The translations under genes were made by a program, and so were the position numbers. A stretch of DNA of 64,000 nt from Tamlana crocina (GTDB taxonomy: Bacteria; Bacteroidota; Bacteroidia; Flavobacteriales; Flavobacteriaceae): NCBI GenBank assembly GCA_040429635.1, contig CP158972.1:715918-779917 (forward strand), written 5' to 3'. The notes beneath the pieces are model-generated. The model had not been told where the DNA came from and did not search any database. It was given only the letters and a program-made list of their open reading frames with translations. Shown here one piece after another: positions 7,591 to 21,974 of this stretch (position 1 is its first letter; the number at the start of each line of letters is the position of its first letter).

Positions 7591-7672
7591 GCGGGCGTGG
7601 TGGAATTGGTAGACACGCTAGACTTAGGATCTAGTGCCGCGAGGTGTGAGAGTTCGAGTCTCTCCGCCCGCA
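7591..7672 (+). tRNA. tRNA-Leu (anticodon UAG)
   Basis: The acceptor arm GCGGGCG pairs with CGCCCGC, with discriminator A at 7672. The D-arm region has GGTGGAATTGGTAGACAC typical of leucine tRNAs. The anticodon loop CTTAGGA gives anticodon UAG, there is a variable arm (GCCGCGAGGTGT), and the T-arm is AGTTCGAGTCT. The 3' CCA is not fully encoded (CCT follows). Confidence 0.95.
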
Positions 7673-7677
7673 CCTCG

Positions 7678-7898: not shown

Positions 7899-8477
7899 AT
7901 GAAAGAAGACAGAATACTTTTTGAATGTGTTAAAAAGGACAACCAGCGTGCTTTGGAACAGTTATTTCAAAAGTATTATTTTAACTTGTGTCTGTATGCT
8001 AAAAAATATGTGGTGAGTGCAGATTTGGCCGAAGAAGTAGTGGCCGATGTGTTCTTTAAAATTTGGCAAAACAGAAAGACGCTCCAAATCAATACGTCGT
8101 TAAAATCATATTTGTTTGTGGCGACTAAAAACCTGTCCATCAATGTTGTCAATAAAGCAAAAAGCGATTATTTAAAACAGGAGATTCCAGAAATTAGTGC
8201 CGATTTTTCACATCTTAATACCGATGAATCTTTACACTATAATGAGGTTAAAATACAAATAGACCAGATTATAGAAGAACTCCCGCCGCAACGAAAAATC
8301 ATTTTTAAGCTTAATAGAATAGACGGACTTAAATACAAAGAAATAGCCGAAAAGTTAGGTATTTCGGTTAGTACTGTGCAAAAGCAAATGATTGAAGCCA
8401 TAAAACATGTTTCCCAATACGAATCGCAATTTATAACGTTTGTTATTTCTTTTTGTTTGAGTTTTATTGACATTTAG
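7899..8477 (+). CDS. ECF RNA polymerase sigma factor (Bacteroidota Sus-type)
   Basis: A 192-aa sigma-70-like factor with region 2 (about residues 20-85: ALEQLFQKYYFNLCLYA, LAEEVVADVFFKIWQNR) and region 4 (about 120-172: LPPQRKIIFKLNRIDGLKYKEIAEKLGIS, the helix-turn-helix). The C-terminus adds a hydrophobic tail, QFITFVISFCLSFIDI, seen in some Bacteroidota ECF factors and possibly membrane-associating. It is followed 75 bp later by a FecR-type anti-sigma gene and then an STN-domain SusC. By family knowledge this forms a surface-signalling cascade in which substrate binding by SusC releases this factor to transcribe the locus. Confidence 0.9.
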   Translation: MKEDRILFECVKKDNQRALEQLFQKYYFNLCLYAKKYVVSADLAEEVVADVFFKIWQNRKTLQINTSLKSYLFVATKNLSINVVNKAKSDYLKQEIPEISADFSHLNTDESLHYNEVKIQIDQIIEELPPQRKIIFKLNRIDGLKYKEIAEKLGISVSTVQKQMIEAIKHVSQYESQFITFVISFCLSFIDI

Positions 8478-8552
8478 ATAACGATTTGTTAACAAGTTTC
8501 AATGGTAGATTAAACGCCTCATACTGGTCTTAATAGTAAAAGATCAGATAAT

Positions 8553-9521
8553 ATGAACGATGAAGTTTTTTACGAAATCGCTATAAAGAATTTAACAAAT
8601 GAATCTTCTGAAGAAGAGAGGGCGCAGTTAAAACGATACCTTTTACTTCCCGAATATCAAGCCAAGTATGATGAACTTGCCGATGTGCTTAAAAATCACC
8701 CTGCCGAAGCTTTTCAAGAATTCAACCTTAATCGCGGGCTTAAAAAACTACGTTATAAAATAAAGCAGGCCGAGAGCGATAATTTCTTTTCAAATAGAAA
8801 AATAATGGCCATTGCTGCGTCTTTGGTAGTTCTGTTGGGACTGGGGATACTTTTTAACAATGATTTTTTTGTGCCAAAACCAGTTAACTATGTTTCTGTG
8901 ACCAGTATGGCAGGCCAACGTACAGAAATCCTTCTACCCGATAGCTCAATCGTGTATTTAAATTCTGGAGCTACTATCCGTTACCCTGAAAAATTTCTAA
9001 GCAACCAGAGAGATGTAGAATTGAAGGGCGAAGCCTTTTTTAAAGTAAAACGAAACGTTGATAAACCTTTTACGGTTATTTCGGGGAATTTTAAAACTAC
9101 CGTTTTGGGAACTTCATTCAGTGTGAGCAATAATGACGAGAACGACTTTCAAGTGGTCGTAAAAACCGGAAAGGTTAAGGTTGAAAACAATATCACCAAA
9201 AAACAATTCATACTTATAAAAAACACCCAAGTCGCTTTTAATGCTGAGGATGGGGAACTGGAAAAATCTACTGTAAATTCCGAATACGTAACCGATTGGC
9301 ATAAAAACTTGCTGCGTTTCGATGCGATTACCGCCAAAGAAGCTTTTAGCAAAATTGAAAAGTGGTACAATGTTAAAATTTATTGTGAAGCTGATTCCAT
9401 TTTAAATAGAAAAATACGGGCAGCCTACAGTGATGAACCTCTTGAAAAAGTATTTAAAAGTTTGGAATTCATGATAGGCTTAAAGTACGAAATTGAAAAC
9501 GATACGATAATAATAAAATAA
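8553..9521 (+). CDS. FecR-type anti-sigma factor
   Basis: A 322-aa inner-membrane protein. It has a cytoplasmic N-terminus (residues 1-80) expected to bind the sigma factor, one transmembrane helix (about 84-102: IMAIAASLVVLLGLGILF), and a periplasmic FecR domain. That domain contains TSMAGQRTEILLPDSSIVYLNSG, GEAFFKVKR, PFTVISG and TTVLGTSFSV, followed by a DUF4974-type C-terminal domain (about 245-322). It should receive a signal from the STN domain of the adjacent SusC through the periplasm. It lies 75 bp after the sigma gene and 114 bp before susC. Confidence 0.92.
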   Translation: MNDEVFYEIAIKNLTNESSEEERAQLKRYLLLPEYQAKYDELADVLKNHPAEAFQEFNLNRGLKKLRYKIKQAESDNFFSNRKIMAIAASLVVLLGLGILFNNDFFVPKPVNYVSVTSMAGQRTEILLPDSSIVYLNSGATIRYPEKFLSNQRDVELKGEAFFKVKRNVDKPFTVISGNFKTTVLGTSFSVSNNDENDFQVVVKTGKVKVENNITKKQFILIKNTQVAFNAEDGELEKSTVNSEYVTDWHKNLLRFDAITAKEAFSKIEKWYNVKIYCEADSILNRKIRAAYSDEPLEKVFKSLEFMIGLKYEIENDTIIIK

Positions 9522-9568
9522 GTTATAAGAATAAAAACGCAATCGAAAACAATAAAAAAAACTGGAAC

Positions 9569-9607
9569 TGCGTCACCAGCTCCAGCTTCTCAGAATTTTT
9601 TAAAATC
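9569..9607 (+). terminator. possible attenuating hairpin between fecR and susC
   Basis: CTGGAACTG and CAGCTCCAG can pair (8 bp with one mismatch), and a T-rich stretch (AATTTTTT) follows about 9 bases later. The distance to the T-run makes it a weak terminator candidate; it could separate regulator and transporter transcripts. Confidence 0.3.
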
Positions 9608-9635
9608 CTATTTACTAAAAAAGTAACACTAAATT

Positions 9636-12600
9636 ATGAAATTAAATTTATACCAAAAAAGGAAATTTTTTTCCGACAAGGTTTTGATGGTATTTATCGC
9701 TACCATTACACTTTTTGGGCTATCTACCCAATGTGTTTCAGCACAAAACAATCTTGAAAAAACCACAACCCTTAAAGTAAAAAATGTAACTCTAAATCAG
9801 TTATTCAATCAATTAGAGAAAAACACACCGTATCGGTTTAGTTATTCAGACGATATACTAAATAACAAAAAGGTATTCACCTATAATTTCACCAACGAGA
9901 AATTACAAACCATTTTAGACCAAATTAGTAAAGATGCTGAATTAAACTACTTGGTAAGCGGTTCTACCATTACGCTAAGCGGTTTAAAAAAGGTAAAGGT
10001 TTACGGTCAAGTTAAAGACGAGCAAGGCATGCCTTTAGTTGGGGTAAATGTTATTTTGAAAGGTACCAAGGTTGGAGTGCTTACCGATTTTGACGGGAAC
10101 TATAACCTGCAGGCACCTGAAAATAGTACTCTTCTGTTTTCTTTTATGGGAATGAACAGTGTTGAAACTTCAATCAGAAATGGGGGGCTGTTCAATATCA
10201 CCATGCAAGAGGATGTGGTCGCCATGGATGAAGTTGTGGTAACGGCATTGAATATTACTCGTGAGGAAAAATCTTTGGGATATTCTGTGGCCAAAATTGA
10301 AAGCGACGAAATAACCAAAACCGTTTCGGGAAACTGGCTGAACAGTTTAGGCGGTAAAGTTGCGGGGTTGACGTTTACTTCGGCAAATTCAGGACCCAGT
10401 AGCTCCATCCGGGTTACTTTGAGAGGAGACCAATCGTTAAATTACGGTAATAACGAAGCGCTATTTGTTATTGATGGTGTGCCTGTAAATTCTGGGGCAA
10501 CGGCTACCCGAAGTGTTAGTAATTATGCACAGGCCGATGCACCTGTAGATTACGGTGATGGAATGAGTGATATTAATCCAGATGATATCGAATCGGTTTC
10601 AGTTTTAAAAGGACCAGCGGCTGCGGCCTTGTACGGTTCGCGTGCAGCCAATGGCGCCATTATGATTACCACCAAATCGGGCAAAAAAAATAAAGGTTTG
10701 GGTATTACGGTAAACTCTTCGGTAACTTTCGAGCAGGCTGGTTTTTTTCCGGATTTTCAAACGCAATTTGGTAATGGTTCCGACATGGGCGCTAGTGAAT
10801 ATTCACTTTGGAACCTTACGTCAGAAATGGCTCCGGATGGCGTAGAGCAACCAAGGCACTATTCGCGCTATACATTTGGGGAGGCATTCGATGCAAACAA
10901 AATGCGTTATTTGTACGCCTCTAAAAATTGGGATAATGATACCTACACCAAATTACCATGGGTATATCAAGACGATTGGTACACGGGCTTATTCCAAACC
11001 GGTGTAACAACAAGTAATACGGTTAGTATTAACGGAAATAACGGCAAAGGAACATCAACACGTTTTTCGGTAACCGATTTTAAAAACGAATGGATTTTGC
11101 CTAACACGGGTTTTAATAGAAACACCGTTTCCCTTGCTATAAATACGCCTGTTTCAGATAAGATAAAATTGAACACTAAGGTTAATTATTACAAAAAGAA
11201 AAGTGATAACATGCCGGTTAGTGGTTACGACGAAACCAACCCAATGTACGCTTTGGTTTGGGGATTCAATGTTAATAGTATTCAAGATTGGAAAGACGAA
11301 TATTTTAACGGACGTTACAACTACGCCAATTGGAGTGCCGGTGGCGAAAATGGTATGGGGCTTGTGTTTCCTTCAGCAAACTCCTTTAACCCATATCGTA
11401 CACTTTATGAGGCGTTGAACACGCAAGATAAAAACCGTGTTTTCGGGAGTATTGGTTTAACTTTCGATTTGCTTAAAAACCTAACACTCGATTTGCGTTC
11501 TGGTTTAGATTGGTCTGATGAATATAGAACCCAACGTAAACCTTACTACACAGCGGGTTATCAAAACGGATTTTATCGAGAGCAAACCGTTAGAGTTTTA
11601 GAAAACAACAACGATTTTATGCTGCGCTACAACAACACGTTTAGTAATGGCCGTTTTGGGCTTTCGGCTATGGTTGGTGGCAATAATCGTGTTAACGAAT
11701 ATTACAACAGCAAGATTACATTAAGTGAGTTGGGCGAAGAAGATATTTACCACACTACAAACTTGCCAACGGGAGTAAATCCAGACCCGTATAACTACCG
11801 TAGCGAGAAAGTAGTAAATAGTTTGTATGGTTTGCTATCATTAAGTTGGGACGATGCCTACTTTTTGGATGTTACCGCGCGTAACGATTGGTCCAGTACT
11901 TTATCCAGAGGTAATTGGTCGTATTTTTATCCATCGGTTTCTGCAAGTGTTCTGTTGGATAAAACATTCAACTTTCAAGAAAATGCGCCGTGGGTAGATA
12001 TGTTAAAAGTTCGTGCATCTTGGGCAAATGTAGGTAACGATACGTCGGCGTATTCTCTAGATCAAGTGTATGGTACAACTTCATATCCGGGAGGTTACAC
12101 GTTACCAGGAAATATTCCAGATCCGTTAATTCAACCAGAAAATGTAGAAAGCTGGGAGGCTGGAATTGAAGCCAAGCTGTTTAAAAACAGACTATCTTTT
12201 GATGTTACGGCTTATCATTCTTCAACCACAAACCAAATAGTTTCTGTTGATGTGGATCAGATTACCGGTGCAACGGGGATGACCATTAATGCCGGTGAAA
12301 TTTCCAATAAAGGATTAGAAGTTTCTGCGAATTTTGTGCCTGTAAGAACCAAAGATTTTAAATGGGATTTTGATGTCACATGGTCTAAAAACATTAATAA
12401 GTTAGTGAGCTTACAGGATGGTTGGGACCCTACGGTACCACTACAAACCGATATGGGAACTACTATTGGAAGCAGAACTTATGTGTATTCTTATGTAGGT
12501 GAAGAGATGCACGTTATTTACGGTCGTGGGTTTCAAAGAGCACCGGAAGGCGCTACTTACATTGATGAAAATGGTGAAGAGCAAGATGCTTCGGGCATGC

Positions 12601-13223
12601 ACATTGTAAATTCTGAAGGCTATCCGGTATTGGATAATTCACCAGAAACAAGAATTGGTAACGTAAACCCAGATTGGCGAGCAGGAATGGTGCAACGTTT
12701 TAAGTATAAAAACTTAATGCTTTCGGCAACTTTTGCAGGACAATTGGGCGGAAATGCATTTTCGGTAACCAACTTTGCTTTGTCTTACCAAGGTAAACTT
12801 AATAACTCAGTTGAAGGGCGCTACGATGGCATAGTGCACCCTGGTGTTAATGCCGTTGAAAACACAGATGGTTCTATCACTTACACCAAAAACAACACGG
12901 TAACCAACAGTATTCAAACCTATTACAACACCTACGTTTGGAACCGTAACAATACCGAAATGAACACCTTCGATACTTCTTATTTAAAACTAAGAGAATT
13001 ACGTTTAGATTATCAATTACCGGCAAAATTAATAAGCAAAATCGGGGCATTTAAAGATGTAAGTTTTGGGGCCTACGCTACCAATGTATTCAGTATTACA
13101 GATTTTCCGCAGTACGATCCGGATACGGGTATGCTAAACGGCTCTAACATTTACAAAGGTATCGAGTCGATGACTTTCCCAATGACAAGAACTTACGGAT
13201 TAAACGTTAAACTTTCATTCTAA
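9636..13223 (+). CDS. SusC/RagA-type TonB-dependent transporter with STN domain
   Basis: A 1195-aa outer-membrane transporter. In order: signal peptide (residues 1-37, CVSAQ), STN signalling domain (about 45-112), carboxypeptidase-regulatory-like domain (about 122-200, VYGQVKDEQGMPLVGVNV and TDFDGNYNL), TonB-plug region (about 205-345 with DEVVVTALN and LKGPAAAALYGSRAANGAI), and a beta-barrel up to the terminal aromatic residue (NVKLSF). The STN domain, together with the upstream sigma/FecR pair, indicates substrate-induced autoregulation. Its SusD partner starts 10 bp downstream. The downstream enzymes suggest the cargo carries phosphoesters; this is inference. Confidence 0.95.
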   Translation: MKLNLYQKRKFFSDKVLMVFIATITLFGLSTQCVSAQNNLEKTTTLKVKNVTLNQLFNQLEKNTPYRFSYSDDILNNKKVFTYNFTNEKLQTILDQISKDAELNYLVSGSTITLSGLKKVKVYGQVKDEQGMPLVGVNVILKGTKVGVLTDFDGNYNLQAPENSTLLFSFMGMNSVETSIRNGGLFNITMQEDVVAMDEVVVTALNITREEKSLGYSVAKIESDEITKTVSGNWLNSLGGKVAGLTFTSANSGPSSSIRVTLRGDQSLNYGNNEALFVIDGVPVNSGATATRSVSNYAQADAPVDYGDGMSDINPDDIESVSVLKGPAAAALYGSRAANGAIMITTKSGKKNKGLGITVNSSVTFEQAGFFPDFQTQFGNGSDMGASEYSLWNLTSEMAPDGVEQPRHYSRYTFGEAFDANKMRYLYASKNWDNDTYTKLPWVYQDDWYTGLFQTGVTTSNTVSINGNNGKGTSTRFSVTDFKNEWILPNTGFNRNTVSLAINTPVSDKIKLNTKVNYYKKKSDNMPVSGYDETNPMYALVWGFNVNSIQDWKDEYFNGRYNYANWSAGGENGMGLVFPSANSFNPYRTLYEALNTQDKNRVFGSIGLTFDLLKNLTLDLRSGLDWSDEYRTQRKPYYTAGYQNGFYREQTVRVLENNNDFMLRYNNTFSNGRFGLSAMVGGNNRVNEYYNSKITLSELGEEDIYHTTNLPTGVNPDPYNYRSEKVVNSLYGLLSLSWDDAYFLDVTARNDWSSTLSRGNWSYFYPSVSASVLLDKTFNFQENAPWVDMLKVRASWANVGNDTSAYSLDQVYGTTSYPGGYTLPGNIPDPLIQPENVESWEAGIEAKLFKNRLSFDVTAYHSSTTNQIVSVDVDQITGATGMTINAGEISNKGLEVSANFVPVRTKDFKWDFDVTWSKNINKLVSLQDGWDPTVPLQTDMGTTIGSRTYVYSYVGEEMHVIYGRGFQRAPEGATYIDENGEEQDASGMHIVNSEGYPVLDNSPETRIGNVNPDWRAGMVQRFKYKNLMLSATFAGQLGGNAFSVTNFALSYQGKLNNSVEGRYDGIVHPGVNAVENTDGSITYTKNNTVTNSIQTYYNTYVWNRNNTEMNTFDTSYLKLRELRLDYQLPAKLISKIGAFKDVSFGAYATNVFSITDFPQYDPDTGMLNGSNIYKGIESMTFPMTRTYGLNVKLSF

Positions 13224-13233
13224 AAACACTGTT

Positions 13234-14802
13234 ATGACTTATTTAAGAAAACTATTAACCATCGGGTTAGTAAGCTTATTGTTTGCTTGTACTTCCGATT
13301 TTGAAGATATAAATACAAACCCAAACCGAACCAATGTTGGCGATATTAAGGCCAGCGGTTTGTTCGAACCATTGTTGTACAACGGTATTAACGCTTGGCA
13401 AAACTATACTTGGTTTTGGAACAACGAATTAATTCAGTTTACGGCATTTACGGGTGGTGGCACACGCCAAGAACATCGCTATTTTATTGGCGATCAAAAC
13501 TGGCAAAGCGTATGGAATACTTATGCTCGCTACACAAACAATGCGCTGCACATGTACGATTTAAGTGTAGCACAAAACGACCAATCATTGCAAGCGGTAG
13601 CCTTAACTTTAAAGGTGCTTTACATGTCTAACTTGACCGATATGTTTGGTGATGTACCATATTCTGAGGCCTTTCAAGCACGCGAAGGTGGTACAACAGA
13701 GCCAAAGTTCGATTCTCAAAAGGAAGTTTACGAGCAAATGTTTGCCGATTTAGAAACGGCAAACAGTCTATATGCGGAAAACCCCGTGTTCATAAAACCC
13801 GCTTTAGATGGTATGTATGGCGGTAATATCCAACAGTGGAGAAAATTTAATAATGCTTTGTACCTACGTTTGTTGTGCCGTGTTAGTGGTCGTGACGAAA
13901 TGAATACAGCAGCTAAAATGACAATGATGTTAAACAACCCAAGTAAATATCCATTATTCGAATCGAATGAAGATAATGCTACGGTTCAATTCTCTGGTTC
14001 CGATCCTTACCGCAGTCAGTTTGCAAATACCAACGAAAACGGATTTACAAGTTCTGGTAGAAAATTGACCGAGCAGCTAATTAAAATGACGGTTATTGCC
14101 GATGATTTTGGAAATCAAACCTATGAAGATCCCCGTTTGGCTATCTACGGAAAGAAAAACCCAAACTATTTGGTAAATGGTGTAAATGCTTGGAAAGGAA
14201 CCATTGCAGGTTGCACCGAAACTGAGCAAAGCGCTGCAGATGCTGGAACATCGTGGTTAAACGCTGCTGTTTTTTGTAGAGCCGAAATGCCAGCAAGTTA
14301 TATGGATTATGCCGAGGTTCAATTCATTTTAGCCGAAGCTGCTTTAAAAGGTAGTATTGCTGGTGGCGAATTGGCAGCAAAACAATACTACGAAAATGCT
14401 GTAACCGCTTCCATTGAAAAATGGGCAGAATTGGGGCAGTATAGTGAAACGCCAGTGGAAATTTCAGCAGAAAATATTGAAGCATTTTTAGCTTCAGATT
14501 TGGCATCTTGGGATAACGCTGCAAATAAGGCAGAACTTATTGCAAATCAAAAATTCTTAAGTCTATTCTGGATTGGTATGGAAGCTTATCACGAATACCG
14601 ACGTACGGGATATCCAGAGTTAACCATTGGTCGTGGTACGGTGTTCAACGATTATGTATTGCCAACGCGTTTTGCTTACCCCAATACAACAATGGCAACA
14701 AACAACGCCAATGCACAAGAGGCATTGGTACGAATGGGTGGTGAAAACAATATGAAAACTCCTGTTTGGTGGAGTAAACAAGCTATTGAAAGCGGAAACT
14801 AA
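13234..14802 (+). CDS. SusD/RagB-type substrate-binding lipoprotein
   Basis: A 522-aa surface lipoprotein with signal peptide and lipobox LLFAC (Cys19 or thereabouts). It has a helical TPR-like SusD core, e.g. ALTLKVLYMSNLTDMFGDVPYSEAF, WRKFNNALYLRLLCRVSGRD, and a C-terminal FLSLFWIGMEAYHEYRRTGYPEL. This resembles the SusD_2-like subgroup more than classical starch SusD. It should cap the preceding SusC barrel and bind the nutrient at the cell surface. The two genes are 10 bp apart; a BACON lipoprotein follows within about 30 bp, so all are in one operon. Confidence 0.92.
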   Translation: MTYLRKLLTIGLVSLLFACTSDFEDINTNPNRTNVGDIKASGLFEPLLYNGINAWQNYTWFWNNELIQFTAFTGGGTRQEHRYFIGDQNWQSVWNTYARYTNNALHMYDLSVAQNDQSLQAVALTLKVLYMSNLTDMFGDVPYSEAFQAREGGTTEPKFDSQKEVYEQMFADLETANSLYAENPVFIKPALDGMYGGNIQQWRKFNNALYLRLLCRVSGRDEMNTAAKMTMMLNNPSKYPLFESNEDNATVQFSGSDPYRSQFANTNENGFTSSGRKLTEQLIKMTVIADDFGNQTYEDPRLAIYGKKNPNYLVNGVNAWKGTIAGCTETEQSAADAGTSWLNAAVFCRAEMPASYMDYAEVQFILAEAALKGSIAGGELAAKQYYENAVTASIEKWAELGQYSETPVEISAENIEAFLASDLASWDNAANKAELIANQKFLSLFWIGMEAYHEYRRTGYPELTIGRGTVFNDYVLPTRFAYPNTTMATNNANAQEALVRMGGENNMKTPVWWSKQAIESGN

Positions 14803-14829
14803 AAAACAATAAAAAAAACATTGAAAATA

Positions 14830-16053
14830 ATGAATACACTAAATAAAATTCATACAAACAAAATATCGAGGTTGTTTGCATTAATAGCGCTGTTATTGGT
14901 GTCAGTTTCATGTAATGATGACGAGGAAACCATGGGTGATCCATATTTCACAATTGAAGAAAACCCAACCGGATTGTCGGTAGATATCAACGGAATTACC
15001 CAAAGCTATGTGGTACGTTCCAATCAGTCATGGGAAGTCGTAGCACAAAGCGAAGGTGAGTGGGTAAAAGCGTTTCCGAATAAAGGTGACGACGATGGCA
15101 TCTTTAAATTTATTGTTGAAGAAAACAATACGTTTGATGCTCGAGTTATGAACTTTGCATTCTTGGTAAATGGCAAAGAACAGCCCGCTTTGTTTCGAGT
15201 AGAGCAAGAGGCCAACGTACCATTTATTACGGTGCAAAACGCCGAAGAAGGTGTTAGTGTTGCTTCTGCTGGTGGCAACTTTCAAATTAATTTAAGCACC
15301 AACGTTGAGTGGACTTTCCAAATCACCAATGGCGATTGGATTCAAGACATTGAAACCACCGAAACATCAATAAAACTTTCCGCAGAAAAAAATAAAGGCA
15401 CAGAGCGTTCGGCGACTTTAACCGTGAGTTCTGCAAATCATCCGGCTTTAAGCAAAAGTGTTACCATTACACAATTGGATGGAAGTATTGTTTTGGAAGA
15501 ACATTTCGATTGGTTAACCTACGGAAGCACGATTTTTTACACCACATCTGGCGAAAAGCGTATGGATTCTTGGACGCAAGACGAAATGGATAGAGGCTGG
15601 ACAAGCACACCAAATACAAGTTCAAACAATCAGCAAGTGGTGTATGCCAGAACAGGCTTTGTAAAACTAGGAAAAACGGGTTACGGTGGAGATTTGGTTT
15701 CTCCAAAATTTTTAATTCTAGACGAAGAAACCAATGTTAAGGTTACGTTTAAGGCGGTGCCTTACCAAACCAAAGGCGGTACACAAGACGATAATACTTT
15801 AAATGTTGGGGTTATTGGCCCTGGAACGACAAGTGTAGACGCGTTTACCATTAGCAATTGGCCAGATTACGATGCCGATCCTGATTGTACAGCCATTTGG
15901 GAAGATGCTTCGGCAACTTACACCTTTACAATTACTGGTGCTACTGCCGAAACCCAATTACAATTACTTGGAGGTGATTTTGAACTTAAAGGTGTGGGTA
16001 AAGGTAAAAACCGCATTTTCTTAGATGATATTAAAGTTGAAATTATACCTTAA
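14830..16053 (+). CDS. BACON-domain surface lipoprotein
   Basis: A 407-aa lipoprotein with signal peptide and lipobox LVSVSC. Two BACON-like beta-sandwich modules follow (about residues 38-125 and 130-215), with the typical W-x-(V/I) and GNFQINLSTNVEWTF pattern and TERSATLTVSS. A C-terminal jelly-roll-like domain (about 220-407) ends LKGVGKGKNRIFLDDIKVEI. In Sus-type loci, proteins at this position act as accessory surface binding proteins (SusE/F position). I chose ATG 14830; a TTG three codons earlier also opens the frame. Ligand unknown. Confidence 0.8.
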   Translation: MNTLNKIHTNKISRLFALIALLLVSVSCNDDEETMGDPYFTIEENPTGLSVDINGITQSYVVRSNQSWEVVAQSEGEWVKAFPNKGDDDGIFKFIVEENNTFDARVMNFAFLVNGKEQPALFRVEQEANVPFITVQNAEEGVSVASAGGNFQINLSTNVEWTFQITNGDWIQDIETTETSIKLSAEKNKGTERSATLTVSSANHPALSKSVTITQLDGSIVLEEHFDWLTYGSTIFYTTSGEKRMDSWTQDEMDRGWTSTPNTSSNNQQVVYARTGFVKLGKTGYGGDLVSPKFLILDEETNVKVTFKAVPYQTKGGTQDDNTLNVGVIGPGTTSVDAFTISNWPDYDADPDCTAIWEDASATYTFTITGATAETQLQLLGGDFELKGVGKGKNRIFLDDIKVEIIP

Positions 16054-16065
16054 AAGACAGTTGAT

Positions 16066-17352
16066 ATGTTAAAAAAAAATAATTTTAGCCCATCAATATA
16101 TGTTACTGCAAATGTTAGAATCTATTCTTTTTTGTTAATAGTTTGTGTTTTTTTATCAAACTGCACCAGTGATTCTACAATTGAAGACGATAAAAATATT
16201 TTAGAACAAAAACCTATTGGTTATTCTGCCGTTGCTACGGGTATTAGTGTTAACTATAGTGATGTAAGTAGTTATGTAAATAGTGGTTTTACTTTTCTTA
16301 ATCCTACACAAATAAATAAAAATAGAGAGGCCATAGGAGGAAGTTCGTATACTGAAGTTTATGGTTTTAACGTGCCGGAAGAAAATAGGGCAAGGGGCAT
16401 ACGATGGAACAGTGGTGATGAAACCACAAACGAATGGAGACCACAAGGAATAACGGGTTTTAAAAAAAATGGAGTTAGATATCTTTTAATTACTTGGTAT
16501 GGGCGAGAAGGTTCAGACCATAAAGGTTCGCGTATAACTTTGCTTGATATCAGTCCGAGTTCAAGTACATATCTTAAATACAGGCATATACTTTTAGTGC
16601 ATTCTTCAGTTCCTTCTACTGTTAGTGGTTACACGCAATACAATACTTACGCACCTTTAGATATTCATGCAGGAGGTGTAGCTTATTATAATGATAAAGT
16701 ATATATAGCAAGCACAAATTTGGGTATGAGGGTATTTGATTTAAACAAGATTATAGAAGTGTCAACTGGAGCAGGCGCAAGTACAAAATGTGGTAAGGAT
16801 TCTAGCGGAAACTTATATGCCTTTAACTACAGGTATATTTTGCCTCAAATAGAATATTATGATATTAATGGGGGTGCTAATCCGTTTTCAACAGTTCAAA
16901 TTAATGATGAAGGCACTGAACTTTGGACGGCTCAATATTCTTCTGGTAGCTCGAGCGCTAGTGTCGTTCCAAAGGTTTATGGTTTTCCAATAGATTCTGG
17001 CGGAACAGTTCTTAATTCTGGTATTGAGGAAATAATTCCTAAAAATTCGCTTTTCGATGACGATCATGCACATGGTATGCAGGGTGTTTTTAGAAAAGGA
17101 AATAGAATATGGTTGTCTTGTTCAGGAGCTCCATCAGAGTCATATGGGTCAAAAGCAAGATTGGCACGATATACAGACGGTGCTTCAAATACAGTACGTT
17201 ATCGTTGGCCATATGGATCGGAATCTTTGTATTATGAAGCAGAATATGATTATCTATGGAGTTTAACAGAATGGGAACCTAATGCAGGAGCAGCCAATGG
17301 CAGTCAAATTAACCGATGCATTTTTGCAGTTCATTTTTACAAATATGAATAG
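16066..17352 (+). CDS. unknown lipoprotein, probably beta-propeller-like
   Basis: A 428-aa protein with signal peptide and lipobox FLSNC (near residue 33). The mature chain is Gly/Ser/Tyr-rich with repeated strand patterns such as GVAYYNDKVYIASTNLGMRVFDL, ARLARYTDG and IWLSCSG, and an odd DDDHAHGMQG segment. These suggest a six-bladed-type propeller, but no family is recognised. Codon use differs from the neighbours, with many ATA, AGA and AGG codons, hinting at recent acquisition. It is placed between the BACON lipoprotein and the phosphoesterases, 12 and 18 bp from each, so it is transcribed with them; a substrate-binding or lyase-type role is possible. Confidence 0.55.
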   Translation: MLKKNNFSPSIYVTANVRIYSFLLIVCVFLSNCTSDSTIEDDKNILEQKPIGYSAVATGISVNYSDVSSYVNSGFTFLNPTQINKNREAIGGSSYTEVYGFNVPEENRARGIRWNSGDETTNEWRPQGITGFKKNGVRYLLITWYGREGSDHKGSRITLLDISPSSSTYLKYRHILLVHSSVPSTVSGYTQYNTYAPLDIHAGGVAYYNDKVYIASTNLGMRVFDLNKIIEVSTGAGASTKCGKDSSGNLYAFNYRYILPQIEYYDINGGANPFSTVQINDEGTELWTAQYSSGSSSASVVPKVYGFPIDSGGTVLNSGIEEIIPKNSLFDDDHAHGMQGVFRKGNRIWLSCSGAPSESYGSKARLARYTDGASNTVRYRWPYGSESLYYEAEYDYLWSLTEWEPNAGAANGSQINRCIFAVHFYKYE

Positions 17353-17370
17353 GTTTAAAAAAAATAAATA

Positions 17371-19353
17371 ATGAATAATCAGTCACGAAGAAAATTTATT
17401 AAGCTAAGTGGTTTAACAACACTTGCAAGTGTTAGTGGTTTAGGCTTTACCTTGCTTAATTGTGAAAGTAATGATGAGGTTGAAATTGATGAAAATAACG
17501 ACTTAAATATTTCTGGTGTTTCAATTCCTTCGTCGTTAGATGTTAGCAGAGATGGACAAACCACATTAACAGGAAAAGGATTTAAAGTTGGAGATACCAT
17601 TGAGTTTGTATCTTCAACTACTTCACAGAGCTTTTCAGGAACAGTTGTTGAAGTTTCAGATAGCACATTCACCTTTGCGATTCCGTCTAATTTTGAATCA
17701 GGAAATTACGCTGTAAGTGTTTTGCGTAATACCAATAAACTATTGTTGGGTAATATTTTGTGTAATGTAATTGCGAATACCAATATTCCTGATGTTGCAG
17801 GCAAAAACATAAAAGGTGTGGTGTATTGCAATGGCGAAGGTATAGCTAATGTAACGGTTTCCGATGGTTACGAAGTAACTGTTACCGATGCAGAAGGGCG
17901 ATATTATTTAGCGTCACTTAAAAAAACCGGATTTGTTTTTATTTCCGTTCCAGGAAATTACGAAGTTACCAATGTTGGTAGCGCACCTCAGTTTTTTAAG
18001 CGCGTTAGCAACAGCACCGAAACGGTTGAACAAAAAGACTTCTCGCTCATTCAAGTGAATAACGATAATCATGTGGTGTTGTCTTTGGCCGATTGGCATT
18101 TGGCAAATAGAAATAACGATTTAGAGCAATTTACATCTAAAGTGTTGCCGGACATTAACAATACCATAGATAAATATTCCGCAAACGGAACAAAAGTTTA
18201 TGCGTTAACCTTGGGCGATTTAACTTGGGATGCGTATTGGTACAACAATAATTTCGGACTTAACGATTACGTGCCTTACATGAATAAAATAAATGCTCCG
18301 GTATTCAACTTAATCGGGAATCACGATAACGATCCTTATTATGCTAACGACTGGGAAGCCGAAAATAAATACCGCGATATTATTGGGCCAACGTACTATT
18401 CCTTCAACTTAGGAAAAGTGCATTATGTGGTATTGGATAGCGTGGAGTATATCAATTCTGGAGGTTCCCAAGGAACCGTAGGCAGCAGAAATTACAACGA
18501 GCGTTTAACCAACGATCAAATAGAATGGTTAAAAAAGGATTTGGCAACCATTACAGATAAAAGTACGCCAATTGTACTGGCAATGCATACACCATTGCAC
18601 AAACATCCGTCCTTAGATGCTAACGGAAGTCAGGTGAATACAACCGATTTGTTAAACGCAAGCACCTTAAAAAATGCATTGAGCGAATTTGCAACCGTTC
18701 ATGTTTTATCTGGGCATACACATGTTAATTTTTCGGTTGAAGAGCATAACATTATGGAGCATAACACAGCTGCATTGTGTGCAACGTGGTGGTGGACCGG
18801 TAGAAACGGTTATGCCGGTAATCATATTTGTAAAGATGGAAGCCCAGGCGGATATGGTATTTGGGAGATGAATAACCGCGATATAAAATGGCGTTTTAAA
18901 GGGATTGGTTATGATGAAGATTACCAGTTTAGAACTTACGATCTAAATAGTATTCATATTACAGCGGCCAATTACGCCCCAAATTCAAATGATACCGATT
19001 TAGCCGATTATGCCGATGTCTACGCCAGTCCAAGTGCAAACAACGATGTTTTAATAAACGTTTGGGGTTACGATTCGCAATGGCAAATTGAAGTTTTAGA
19101 AGGCAATACGCCCTTAGAAATTTCACGAGTAAGTGCTAAAGATCCGTTACATATTATTTCTTATGATGCTTTGCGTTTAAATGCAGGAGCAACCCCGACC
19201 AGTGCGTTTGTAACGAATAAAACGGCTCACTTTTTTAAAGTAACGGCAGCTACGCCAGATGCCACTTTAAGTATAAAAGTAACTGATAGATTTGGCAATG
19301 TTTACACCGAAAATATGGTGCGCCCCAAAGCGCTAACCTTAGATATGAAATAA
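17371..19353 (+). CDS. exported calcineurin-like phosphoesterase, multi-domain (Tat signal)
   Basis: A 660-aa enzyme. The N-terminus carries a Tat motif (SRRKFIK) and a possible lipobox ending at Cys31. Then an IPT/TIG-like module (about 46-133), a MetallophosN-type domain (about 146-205), the catalytic metallophosphatase domain (about 233-480) and a MetallophosC-type C-terminal domain (about 500-660). Metal ligands seen: D241-x-H243, GD283, GNH318D319, H406 and GH449TH451, a complete set. It should hydrolyse a phosphomono- or diester at the envelope. A Sec-exported paralogue follows 15 bp downstream. Confidence 0.88.
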   Translation: MNNQSRRKFIKLSGLTTLASVSGLGFTLLNCESNDEVEIDENNDLNISGVSIPSSLDVSRDGQTTLTGKGFKVGDTIEFVSSTTSQSFSGTVVEVSDSTFTFAIPSNFESGNYAVSVLRNTNKLLLGNILCNVIANTNIPDVAGKNIKGVVYCNGEGIANVTVSDGYEVTVTDAEGRYYLASLKKTGFVFISVPGNYEVTNVGSAPQFFKRVSNSTETVEQKDFSLIQVNNDNHVVLSLADWHLANRNNDLEQFTSKVLPDINNTIDKYSANGTKVYALTLGDLTWDAYWYNNNFGLNDYVPYMNKINAPVFNLIGNHDNDPYYANDWEAENKYRDIIGPTYYSFNLGKVHYVVLDSVEYINSGGSQGTVGSRNYNERLTNDQIEWLKKDLATITDKSTPIVLAMHTPLHKHPSLDANGSQVNTTDLLNASTLKNALSEFATVHVLSGHTHVNFSVEEHNIMEHNTAALCATWWWTGRNGYAGNHICKDGSPGGYGIWEMNNRDIKWRFKGIGYDEDYQFRTYDLNSIHITAANYAPNSNDTDLADYADVYASPSANNDVLINVWGYDSQWQIEVLEGNTPLEISRVSAKDPLHIISYDALRLNAGATPTSAFVTNKTAHFFKVTAATPDATLSIKVTDRFGNVYTENMVRPKALTLDMK

Positions 19354-19368
19354 AAAATATTAATAAAA

Positions 19369-20961
19369 ATGAAATCATTATACATAAAACAATCGTTAAC
19401 GCTAGTACTTTTTGCAACTATAAGTTTTCAAGCTTTAGCACAAGAAAAAGTAGCTGGTTATGTGTTTAGCGATGCCAATAAAAATGGCAAAAAAGAGTCG
19501 AGAGAAAAAGGAATTGCTAATGTTGCCGTAACAAACGGCGTTGATGTTGTGCTTACCGATAAAAAAGGAAAGTACGAATTGCCTTTGGGAGACGATAACA
19601 TCATTTCTGTGATAAAACCAAGTGACTATGCCGTTGCATCAAACACCGATAATTTACCACAGTTTTTTTATAATCATAAACCAAAAGGATCGCCAAAATT
19701 AAAATTCAAAGGTGTTGAAGCAACGGGCAAATTACCGCGACTGCTTAATTTTCCTTTAATGCCTTCCGAAGAAAAAGACGTTTTTACCGCCTTGATTTTT
19801 GGCGATCCACAACCATATACACAAGAAGAGGTTGACTATTTCGCAAAAGGCGTTGTAGAAGAAGTGGCCAATATTGAAAATGTGCCGTTCGGTTTAAGTC
19901 TTGGCGATTTGGTTGGAAATGATTTGGACTTGTTCAATCCGTACATTCAAGCGACAAAAAAAGCAGGAATACCTTGGTATAACGTGTTGGGCAACCACGA
20001 TATTAATTTTGATGCCAAAACCGATGAGCTTTCCGATGAAACTTATGAAGCGCATTTTGGGCCTGCAAATTATGCTTTCAATTACGGTAAAGTACACTTT
20101 ATTGTTTTGGATGATGTGCTGTATCCCGATCCGCGAAACGAAACAAAATACTGGGGTGGTTTTAGGGAAGACCAGCTTCAGTTTATTGAAAACGATTTAA
20201 AACACGTTGCCAAAGATTATTTAATTGTGTTGGCCATGCATATTCCATTGAGCGAACCCGTAAACGAAGATACGTTTAGAGATGAAGACCGTAAACGATT
20301 GTTCGACTTACTGAAACCGTTCCAAAATACGTTGTCGTTATCGGCGCACACACATATACAACGTCAAGATTTCTTTACAAAAAGCGACGGTTGGCACCAA
20401 GAAAAACCCCACCATCATTACAATGTAGGCACAACAAGTGGCGATTGGTATTCGGGCAGATTGGATGAAAATAAAATTCCTGTTTCAACCATGCGCGACG
20501 GCACGCCAAAAGGTTATGCGTTTATAAACTTTAACGGTAATTCGTATAGTATAGATTATAAAGTGGCGGGGAAACCAAAGACCTATCAAATGGAAATTTT
20601 CGCTCCCAAAGTAGTCGCAAAAGCCAAACGAACCAAGTCGGGTATTTATGTGAATTTTTTCATGGGAAGCCAAAACGATGAGGTGCTATACCGTATTGAT
20701 AATGGCGATTGGAAAACCATGGAATACGTTAATGAAGTTGATCCATCGTATGTTTCCCAAATAATTAATTGGGATGAATCTGAAACTTTAATACCAGGCA
20801 AGCGTGGTTCAAACCCAATTGATAGTACACATTTATGGCGAGGGAAGGTGCTTTCAAATCTCGAAGCGGGTGTGCATACCATAGAAGTAAAAGCAAAAGA
20901 TATGTTTGGCAAAGAACATTTTGCCAGTAAAAAGTATCGGGTTGAAGAACCTAAATTTTAA
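19369..20961 (+). CDS. exported calcineurin-like phosphoesterase with MetallophosN/C domains
   Basis: A 530-aa protein with a Sec signal peptide (residues 1-25, QALAQ). Domains in order: MetallophosN-type (about 27-110, VAGYVFSDANKNGKKE), catalytic metallophosphatase (about 138-360) and MetallophosC-type (about 365-525). Metal ligands: FGD146PQ148 (Gln replaces the usual His, as I recall for this subfamily), GD180, GNH210D, H291 and AH327TH329 (Ala for Gly). It is a paralogue of the preceding gene without the IPT-like module and with a different export route. It is expected to act in the periplasm on phosphoester products released at the surface. Confidence 0.9.
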   Translation: MKSLYIKQSLTLVLFATISFQALAQEKVAGYVFSDANKNGKKESREKGIANVAVTNGVDVVLTDKKGKYELPLGDDNIISVIKPSDYAVASNTDNLPQFFYNHKPKGSPKLKFKGVEATGKLPRLLNFPLMPSEEKDVFTALIFGDPQPYTQEEVDYFAKGVVEEVANIENVPFGLSLGDLVGNDLDLFNPYIQATKKAGIPWYNVLGNHDINFDAKTDELSDETYEAHFGPANYAFNYGKVHFIVLDDVLYPDPRNETKYWGGFREDQLQFIENDLKHVAKDYLIVLAMHIPLSEPVNEDTFRDEDRKRLFDLLKPFQNTLSLSAHTHIQRQDFFTKSDGWHQEKPHHHYNVGTTSGDWYSGRLDENKIPVSTMRDGTPKGYAFINFNGNSYSIDYKVAGKPKTYQMEIFAPKVVAKAKRTKSGIYVNFFMGSQNDEVLYRIDNGDWKTMEYVNEVDPSYVSQIINWDESETLIPGKRGSNPIDSTHLWRGKVLSNLEAGVHTIEVKAKDMFGKEHFASKKYRVEEPKF

Positions 20962-20979
20962 AATAATAATTTAAATAAA

Positions 20980-21909
20980 ATGAAGTATTTAAAGTTCTTG
21001 CTACTGTTTGTAGTGATTTTAGGATGCAAAGAACAGGCTAAAACCTCAATCCAAAAAGAAGAAAAGGCTGAAGCGAAACGAGTTCAGGTACAGGGTCACA
21101 GGGGTGAACGTGGGCACAGCCCCGAAAATACCATTGTTGGCTTTAAAAATGCCATCTTAAAAGGCGTGGATGTTATTGAATTGGATGTAGTGGTTTCAAA
21201 AGATAATCAAGTGGTTGTTTCCCACGAGCCTTACATGTCATCACTATATGTGTTGGCCCCAACGGGCGACAGTATTTCTAAGGCCGAAGAAAAGCAGTTT
21301 AATCTGTATAAAATGACGTATGATAGTATTAAAACCTTTGAAGTTGGACTAAAAGGCAATGTTAAATTTCCTCAGCAAAAGCGAATTTCAGCATACAAAC
21401 CTTTGTTGTCTGAAGTTATTGACAGCGTAGAAACCTTTTTGAAAAAACGACAATTACCAGCTGTTGGGTACAATATCGAAATTAAATCGGTGCCATCGCA
21501 ATATGGAGAATATCAGCCGCAACCCGATAAAATGGTCGAGCTTGTTATGCAGGTTTTAAATAGCAAAGCCATAGCAGGACAATGGAATATTCAATCTTTC
21601 GACCCAGCAATTCTCAACGAAATGCATAAATCTTATCCAGAGGTTGAATTGGCCTATTTGGTAAGTAAAGGAGGTGTTGAAGATAATTTGAAACTATTGA
21701 ATTTTACACCCCCAATTTATAGTCCTAACTATAAATTAGTAAAAAACAAAGCATTTATAGATTCTGTAAAAGCAAAACAAATGAAATTGATACCATGGAC
21801 CGTAAATGATTCTTTAGCGATAAAGGAGCAAATTGATTTGGGTGTAGATGGCATCATAACAGATTATCCTGAAAAAGTAATATTGCAAAACAAAAGAATA
21901 AAGAGTTGA
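20980..21909 (+). CDS. glycerophosphodiester phosphodiesterase lipoprotein
   Basis: A 309-aa lipoprotein (lipobox VILGC, Cys16) with a TIM-barrel GDPD domain. The catalytic signature is present: GH40RG, SPEN (48-51), IE67LD69, and H82 in VSHEP. Later barrel motifs are YNIEIKS and IPWTVND, with GVDGIITDYPE at the end. GDPDs cleave glycerophosphodiesters into an alcohol and glycerol-3-phosphate. As last gene of the Sus-like operon, 18 bp after the phosphoesterase and before a strong terminator, it indicates the imported or surface-processed substrate contains glycerophosphodiester-like bonds. Confidence 0.92.
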   Translation: MKYLKFLLLFVVILGCKEQAKTSIQKEEKAEAKRVQVQGHRGERGHSPENTIVGFKNAILKGVDVIELDVVVSKDNQVVVSHEPYMSSLYVLAPTGDSISKAEEKQFNLYKMTYDSIKTFEVGLKGNVKFPQQKRISAYKPLLSEVIDSVETFLKKRQLPAVGYNIEIKSVPSQYGEYQPQPDKMVELVMQVLNSKAIAGQWNIQSFDPAILNEMHKSYPEVELAYLVSKGGVEDNLKLLNFTPPIYSPNYKLVKNKAFIDSVKAKQMKLIPWTVNDSLAIKEQIDLGVDGIITDYPEKVILQNKRIKS

Positions 21910-21948
21910 TTGAAGATTGAGTTTTTTTAGTTAGTTTTTGTTTGAAGG

Positions 21949-21974
21949 GCACAGTTTTTTAACTGTGCTTTTTT
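21949..21974 (+). terminator. terminator closing the phosphoester Sus-like operon
   Basis: GCACAGTT and AACTGTGC form a perfect 8-bp stem with a T-rich loop, followed by six T. It lies 40 bp after the GDPD stop and 17 bp before the convergent murI stop. Confidence 0.88.

Follow-up and report, generated by a model that had tools for sequence, protein, structure and literature searches.

A SusCD locus of Tamlana crocina that carries phosphoesterases and probably scavenges phosphodiesters

We analyzed a stretch of 64,000 nucleotides from Tamlana crocina (GCA_040429635.1, contig CP158972.1, positions 715,918 to 779,917), here called the window. Nine co-directional genes at window positions 7899-21909 (+ strand, open reading frame (ORF) call) encode a sigma/FecR pair, a SusC/SusD pair and three phosphoesterases. 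This locus is probably a substrate-inducible SusCD system for scavenging phosphodiesters, similar to the phosphate-utilisation (PUS) loci of Flavobacterium. Its most likely substrates would be phospholipid glycerophosphodiesters or, for the variant in the window, a larger glycerol- or sugar-phosphate polymer. The features of the locus are as follows.

7899-8477, + strand: extracytoplasmic function (ECF) sigma factor (TIGR02985)
8553-9521, + strand: FecR anti-sigma factor (PF04773 and PF16344)
9562-9585, + strand: conserved hairpin with 9-base arms and loop CGTCAC, ~50 nt before susC
9636-13223, + strand: SusC TonB-dependent transporter of the signalling type, with N-terminal STN, plug and CarbopepD_reg_2 domains (TIGR04056 above cut-off)
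13234-14802, + strand: SusD lipoprotein, SusD-like_2 (PF12771), N-terminus C-TSDFE
14821-16053, + strand: BACON-domain lipoprotein (PF13004, two stretches), N-terminus C-NDDEE, putative surface binding protein
16066-17352, + strand: P6, accessory lipoprotein without Pfam match
17371-19353, + strand: MPP1, phosphoesterase of MetallophosN/C architecture; its twin-arginine motif, lipobox and acidic N-terminus predict a surface lipoprotein exported by twin-arginine translocation (Tat)
19369-20961, + strand: MPP2, phosphoesterase of MetallophosN/C architecture, predicted from its Sec-type signal peptide to be soluble in the periplasm
20980-21909, + strand: glycerophosphodiester phosphodiesterase (GDPD; PF03009) lipoprotein, N-terminus C-KEQ without acidic export signal, predicted to face the periplasm
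21949-21974, + strand: intrinsic terminator, 8-bp stem and T-run

Pfam and NCBIfam profile searches bore out the names given to eight of the nine proteins in a preliminary description of this DNA, P6 being the exception; its gene set, positions and single direction were confirmed as well. As it had also stated, the nine proteins lack domains of glycoside hydrolases, polysaccharide lyases and peptidases in both searches; the linked glycoside hydrolases or lyases of a polysaccharide utilisation locus bearing carbohydrate-active enzymes (CAZymes) are thus lacking. The short spacers it described extend from susC to gdpd (10-18 bp), but not upstream, where the gaps measure 75 bp (sigma-fecR) and 114 bp (fecR-susC). 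The single terminator at the end of the locus was recovered by folding (-16 kcal/mol, z = -3.6), though not listed by a pattern scan. SusC is of the SusC/RagA type (TIGR04056, 635.5 bits; cut-off 368.25) and adjoins the SusD lipoprotein across a 10-bp spacer, as in a SusCD system. SusD scored 279.6 bits against PF12771 (cut-off 27) and 17.2 bits, below the cut-off of 27, against PF14322.

The linkage between SusCD and phosphoesterases recurs widely. We scanned the contigs of the best 80 of 120 MPP2 relatives, in 78 of which the ORF caller called the gene: 56 loci from Bacteroidota (including two pairs, each from one genome), 20 from other phyla and 2 without phylum. A SusD was counted if it matched the window SusD by BLAST or fell in a cluster represented by PF07980/PF14322. 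In 35 of the 56 Bacteroidota loci, the 9 kb upstream of MPP2 hold SusC and SusD in the same orientation as MPP2, 34 times in an unbroken same-strand run; adding two clusters that follow SusC without a SusD Pfam match raises the count to 39. A sigma or FecR gene was found upstream in 29 of the 56, and a GDPD gene of the window type within 1.5 kb downstream in 17. The preliminary description had proposed such a neighbourhood search as a check, and these counts support its phosphodiester-type substrate. No SusC was found near MPP2 in the 20 loci of other phyla or the 2 without phylum. With 51 TonB plug matches over the 3.75 Mb of the window's genome, SusC-MPP2 adjacency would, as a rough yardstick, be rare by chance.

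SusD itself points the same way. Tamlana nanhaiensis has an ortholog of it (94% identity), as do 5 of 248 further genomes sampled from the family (73-86%); beyond these, the next best matches reach at most 38% identity. We considered the 28 best non-orthologous matches (one from the same genome) and counted MetallophosN/C, GDPD, PF01663 and purple-acid-phosphatase genes as phosphoesterases. Such a gene starts within 6 kb downstream of 20 of these 28 SusDs, as opposed to 0 of 20 more distant SusD-like_2 loci scored with the same seeds (Fisher p 2e-7, ignoring kinship and seed origin). The control loci were taken from further down the match list, mostly skipping genomes already used. A Pfam scan of 56 proteins downstream of the near SusDs returned PF16370 in 10, PF01663 in 8 and PF03009 in 6, compared with none of the three in 34 control downstream proteins.

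In a tree of 94 SusD rows, the 7 SusDs of the window type and 48 linked to MPP2 form one clade of 55 rows with a support of 100 in the Shimodaira-Hasegawa-like approximate likelihood ratio test (SH-aLRT). The tree was built by a quick method without bootstrap, contains several long branches, and leaves out three BLAST-labelled rows (L070, L075, L089) and SusDs of type PF07980. MPP2 served to collect many of the 48, but 9 SusDs found via SusD alone also fall inside. The tree thus groups the window SusD with almost every MPP-linked SusD in it, in a phosphoesterase-associated clade whose link to MetallophosN/C and GDPD enzymes covers at least 14 named genera.

These searches also turned up SusCD loci of other composition. 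One lies in the same genome, at and beyond the window end (L234, G000:C1:779557-788293), and encodes a type I phosphodiesterase (PF01663 and PA14), a 420-residue protein without Pfam match and a purple acid phosphatase. Six others (L206, L209, L219, L223, L231, L237) combine SusCD with a type I phosphodiesterase, a purple acid phosphatase and a class-III aminotransferase (by BLAST; L206 checked with Pfam) and are perhaps devoted to (glycero)phosphoethanolamine. Control loci such as L240 and L250 share another recurring set, in which genes for an SSF-like protein and a PF12850 phosphoesterase come after SusD-like_2.

MPP1 and MPP2 both scored above the cut-offs for PF16371, PF00149 and PF16370, the MetallophosN/C architecture, and GDPD did so for PF03009 (122.5 bits; cut-off 23.6). 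Residues 36-298 of GDPD match the glycerophosphodiester phosphodiesterase of PDB 3ch0 (E 9.3e-61), a match at the protein level; PDB sequence searches returned no match for MPP1 or the BACON protein. By VIA, the AlphaFold model of MPP2 (predicted local distance difference test (pLDDT) score 94) was closest in fold to GpdQ (Z 20.8) and Rv0805 (Z 20.6), which tie, and it superposed on GpdQ (PDB 2zo9, 3d03) over 221 residues with a root-mean-square deviation of 2.3 and 15% identity. Further matches were Lmo2642, a zebrafish dimetal phosphatase (2nxf) and purple acid phosphatases; Foldseek's own ranking placed Lmo2642 and a purple acid phosphatase first. MPP2 thus shares the catalytic fold of GpdQ, which is not specific to the GpdQ family, and differs in carrying additional MetallophosN/C domains; the modeled fold fits a phosphodiesterase without fixing its substrate. 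All 54 aligned MPP2 sequences share D146, Q148, D180, N209, H210, H291 and H329, and 53 of them keep H327. The first metal motif is DxQ in all 54, unlike the DxH of GpdQ.

Protein locations were judged by eye from sequence rules. For surface export we used the signal given for F. johnsoniae, SDDFE, as it appears in the portion of PMC5080379 consulted. The mature SusD start, C-TSDFE, comes near this signal; the other lipoproteins begin with C-NDDEE (BACON protein), C-TSDSTIEDD (P6) and C-KEQ (GDPD). The twin-arginine motif, lipobox and acidic start of MPP1 recur in 6 of 6 orthologs (L039, L199-L203), and the genome encodes TatC. MPP2 has no lipobox. These signals suggest that MPP1 is outside the cell, and MPP2 and GDPD in the periplasm.

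A scavenging route can be proposed from these assignments. The STN domain of SusC would sense the substrate and signal through FecR to the ECF sigma factor, switching on the susC-gdpd transcript, as expected from the families. The BACON lipoprotein and SusD would bind a phosphodiester-containing molecule at the surface, where MPP1, if placed as its N-terminus predicts, would make the first cut. SusCD would bring the pieces into the periplasm, MPP2 and GDPD would split phosphodiesters there into alcohols and phosphomonoesters, and phosphatases would free phosphate from the latter. The preliminary description had also proposed delivery of glycerol-3-phosphate as such. This is doubtful, because a search of the genome with the GlpT model TIGR00712 gave no match; if glycerol-3-phosphate is made, it perhaps loses its phosphate outside the cytoplasm or enters by another route.

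An STN domain is expected in transporters that signal to FecR and an ECF sigma factor, and the order sigma-fecR-susC-susD is kept in the 5 of 5 orthologous loci where it is visible (L039, L199-L202); the sixth, L203, starts inside susC. The hairpin in the 114-bp fecR-susC gap is kept in 6 of 6 window-type loci having that stretch (window, L039, L199-L202), with compensatory stem changes among loci and one mismatch in the window copy. A search for its pattern found a single occurrence in the genome, while a different hairpin (at least 7 pairs) was seen in 7 of 54 other SusC upstream regions. Because the gap holds this hairpin, sigma and fecR may form a transcript separate from susC-gdpd. A consensus promoter scan stayed at chance level (48 found, 50.2 expected). 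An Rfam scan of the whole window returned nothing inside the locus and, elsewhere, three tRNAs and Flavo-1 RNA (RF01705; 42029-42107, above gathering score).

The locus is a mosaic. The orthologous loci L199 and L200 have the full gene set, and L039 (T. nanhaiensis) and L201 lack P6 only. MPP2 and the window-type GDPD are both missing from L202 and L203, where MPP1 is followed directly by a GDPD from a different subfamily (PF03009, E 4e-29 and 1e-29, respectively; 26% identity in L202). In L202, the SusD (73% identity) and a 411-residue ORF after it had been masked by antisense ORFs in the first ORF scan. Shorter SusCD-MPP2-GDPD loci in Flavobacterium, Salegentibacter, Gillisia and Algibacter (for example L046, L055, L058 and L086) share sigma/FecR, the SusD clade, GDPD and an MPP2 of 66-73% identity, but lack the BACON protein, P6 and MPP1, and their SusC and SusD are 37-39% and 33% identical. 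In a tree using 89 of 106 MPP2 rows, the window MPP2 falls among those of Flavobacteriaceae (SH-aLRT 91); its position next to Salegentibacter and Gillisia is weak (90). MPP1 forms a deep clade of its own. The window SusD, on a stem of length 1.22, lies outside the 48-row group that holds the Salegentibacter and Gillisia SusDs (SH-aLRT 89). The simplest reading of these sequences is that a SusCD-BACON-MPP1 locus took up the MPP2-GDPD genes of a widespread SusCD-MPP2-GDPD module. Alternatively, SusD may have changed faster; the tree supports are modest and the stem of the window SusD is long.

It is conceivable, at perhaps one chance in four, that this joining of SusCD-BACON-MPP1 with a headgroup-scavenging MPP2-GDPD module created a locus that uses a polymer held together by phosphodiester links, either teichoic-acid-like or a phosphoglycan. 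MPP1 would then cut the backbone at the surface while the BACON protein and SusD hold the polymer, SusC would import oligo-phosphodiesters, and MPP2 and GDPD would finish the breakdown in the periplasm.

Distribution of the locus is patchy. A tRNA-Leu gene (7591-7674) lies directly upstream. In the only other genome of the genus searched (G606), no SusD ortholog was found; the neighbouring peptidase gene is kept (88%) with different genes beside it, which suggests a variable site.

The preliminary description had implied a more unusual locus. Its phosphoesterases in place of CAZymes stand, but phosphate-responsive SusCD-phosphodiesterase loci are known: excerpts of PMC8115612 describe PUS loci of Flavobacterium, in which SusCD, phosphodiesterases or PhoA, and ECF/FecR genes are strongly induced by phosphate depletion. 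The idea of PusCD is taken up again in part of PMC8812569. PUSI and PUSII of Flavobacterium johnsoniae resemble the window locus in having SusCD, ECF sigma/FecR and exported phosphodiesterases or a phosphatase without CAZyme partners, and both arrangements co-localise SusCD with phosphomono- or diesterases. The families specific to PUSI and PUSII are different: as excerpted from PMC8115612, PusD1 and PusD2 belong to PF07980/PF14322, and the hydrolases are PI-PLC-C1 and Metallophos (PUSI) or PhoA (PUSII), whereas the window has a PF12771 SusD, two MetallophosN/C proteins and GDPD. The terms pf16370, pf16371, pf03009 and pf12771 do not occur in the main text of that paper, one of whose six PusCD forms may be of the MPP2-GDPD type. 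F. johnsoniae itself lay outside our comparison; in three loci called PUSI-like from their PI-PLC-C1, Metallophos and SusD genes (L215-L217), SusC is 23% identical to that of the window. Another locus (L133), from a genome of the family, has, in order, a SusC-like gene, a PF07980/PF14322 SusD, an alkaline phosphatase in which GDPD_2 scores 23.3 bits (below the cut-off of 27) and a MetallophosN/C gene; the same excerpts assign PUSII PhoA1 this pairing of alkaline phosphatase and GDPD_2 domains. In part of PMC10434189, a B. thetaiotaomicron table lists a GDPD gene at a distance of three loci from a SusCD pair. The window locus therefore looks like a further version of the recently described phosphorus-scavenging SusCD strategy, not a separate type of system. 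With it, the range of phosphate-utilisation SusCD loci grows from the Flavobacterium cases described so far to a PF12771 SusD clade with MetallophosN/C and GDPD enzymes. SusCD pairs and MetallophosN/C proteins otherwise without substrate gain an assignment that can be tested. Annotation that equates any SusCD with glycan uptake would mislabel such loci.

The phosphodiester-type substrate put forward in the preliminary description is supported by the recurring SusCD-MPP2/GDPD linkage, the SusD clade and the replacement of the window-type GDPD by another GDPD in two orthologous loci. Several observations weigh against it. By the counting rule, 16 of the 56 Bacteroidota MPP2 loci have no SusC upstream, and 8 of the 28 near SusDs have no phosphoesterase neighbour (L224, L226, L227, L229, L230, L232, L233, L236). 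Some seeds of the downstream test were drawn from the test loci and its controls were hand-picked; PF12850, another metallophosphoesterase domain, occurs in 6 of the 34 control downstream proteins. The MetallophosN/C-linked SusD of L225, found via SusD, falls outside the 55-row clade, beside PF01663 loci. The fold match of MPP2 is compatible with several esterase types. The BACON protein may indicate that the substrate is partly glycan, and a MetallophosN/C gene of B. thetaiotaomicron is listed among family 10 glycosylhydrolase genes (PMC10434189, in part).

The last two points would also suit a system that gains carbon from a phosphorylated glycan, its phosphoesterases stripping phosphate decorations or bridges and the backbone being cut by enzymes encoded elsewhere. 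SusCD systems mostly import glycans. We consider this explanation rather unlikely, as the nine proteins lack CAZyme domains and no glycoside hydrolase appears among the 25 of 34 families shown downstream of the nearest SusDs, whereas the control set has some. Less likely still are nucleotide-type esters (cyclic nucleotides, CDP-alcohols, nucleic-acid fragments) in place of glycerophosphodiesters. In favour of them, Rv0805 ties with GpdQ as a match of MPP2; Lmo2642 and 2nxf are further close structural matches; and the invariant DxQ, presumably shared with ADPRM/CPPED1-type enzymes, stands where DxH is usual. However, no nuclease or nucleotidase domain was found in the nine proteins, and the linkage to GDPD, with another GDPD in its place in two loci, also argues against them. 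The C-terminal part of the BACON protein weakly matched an NCBIfam surface endonuclease model (27 bits; cut-off 260). That an ordinary small-molecule or iron-type TonB system lies by chance beside unrelated hydrolase genes is highly improbable: FecR/ECF pairs serve other TonB receptors too, but the linkage recurs in many genera, the spacers are 10-18 bp, and SusC exceeds the SusC/RagA cut-off and has a SusD partner.

P6 had no Pfam match at E 0.01, no NCBIfam match and no convincing PDB sequence match; its single-sequence AlphaFold model reached a pLDDT of 33. Besides its own genome, 3 of 295 and 8 of 345 genomes contained relatives (one of the three a 76-residue match); viral contigs contained none. 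Distant relatives occur in 15 actinobacterial plasmid-collection records, including Streptomyces (25-36% identity over at most 73% of the query). P6 was dropped as a candidate core enzyme, since it is missing from 4 of 6 orthologous loci (L039, L201, L202, L203) and no MPP or GDPD context was found at the 8 loci of relatives that were opened (L119, L120, L267-L272). By its distribution P6 looks like a dispensable add-on to the locus; where present, it is more strongly conserved than the rest of the operon, with 91% identity in L199 and L200 compared with 59-90% for the other genes.

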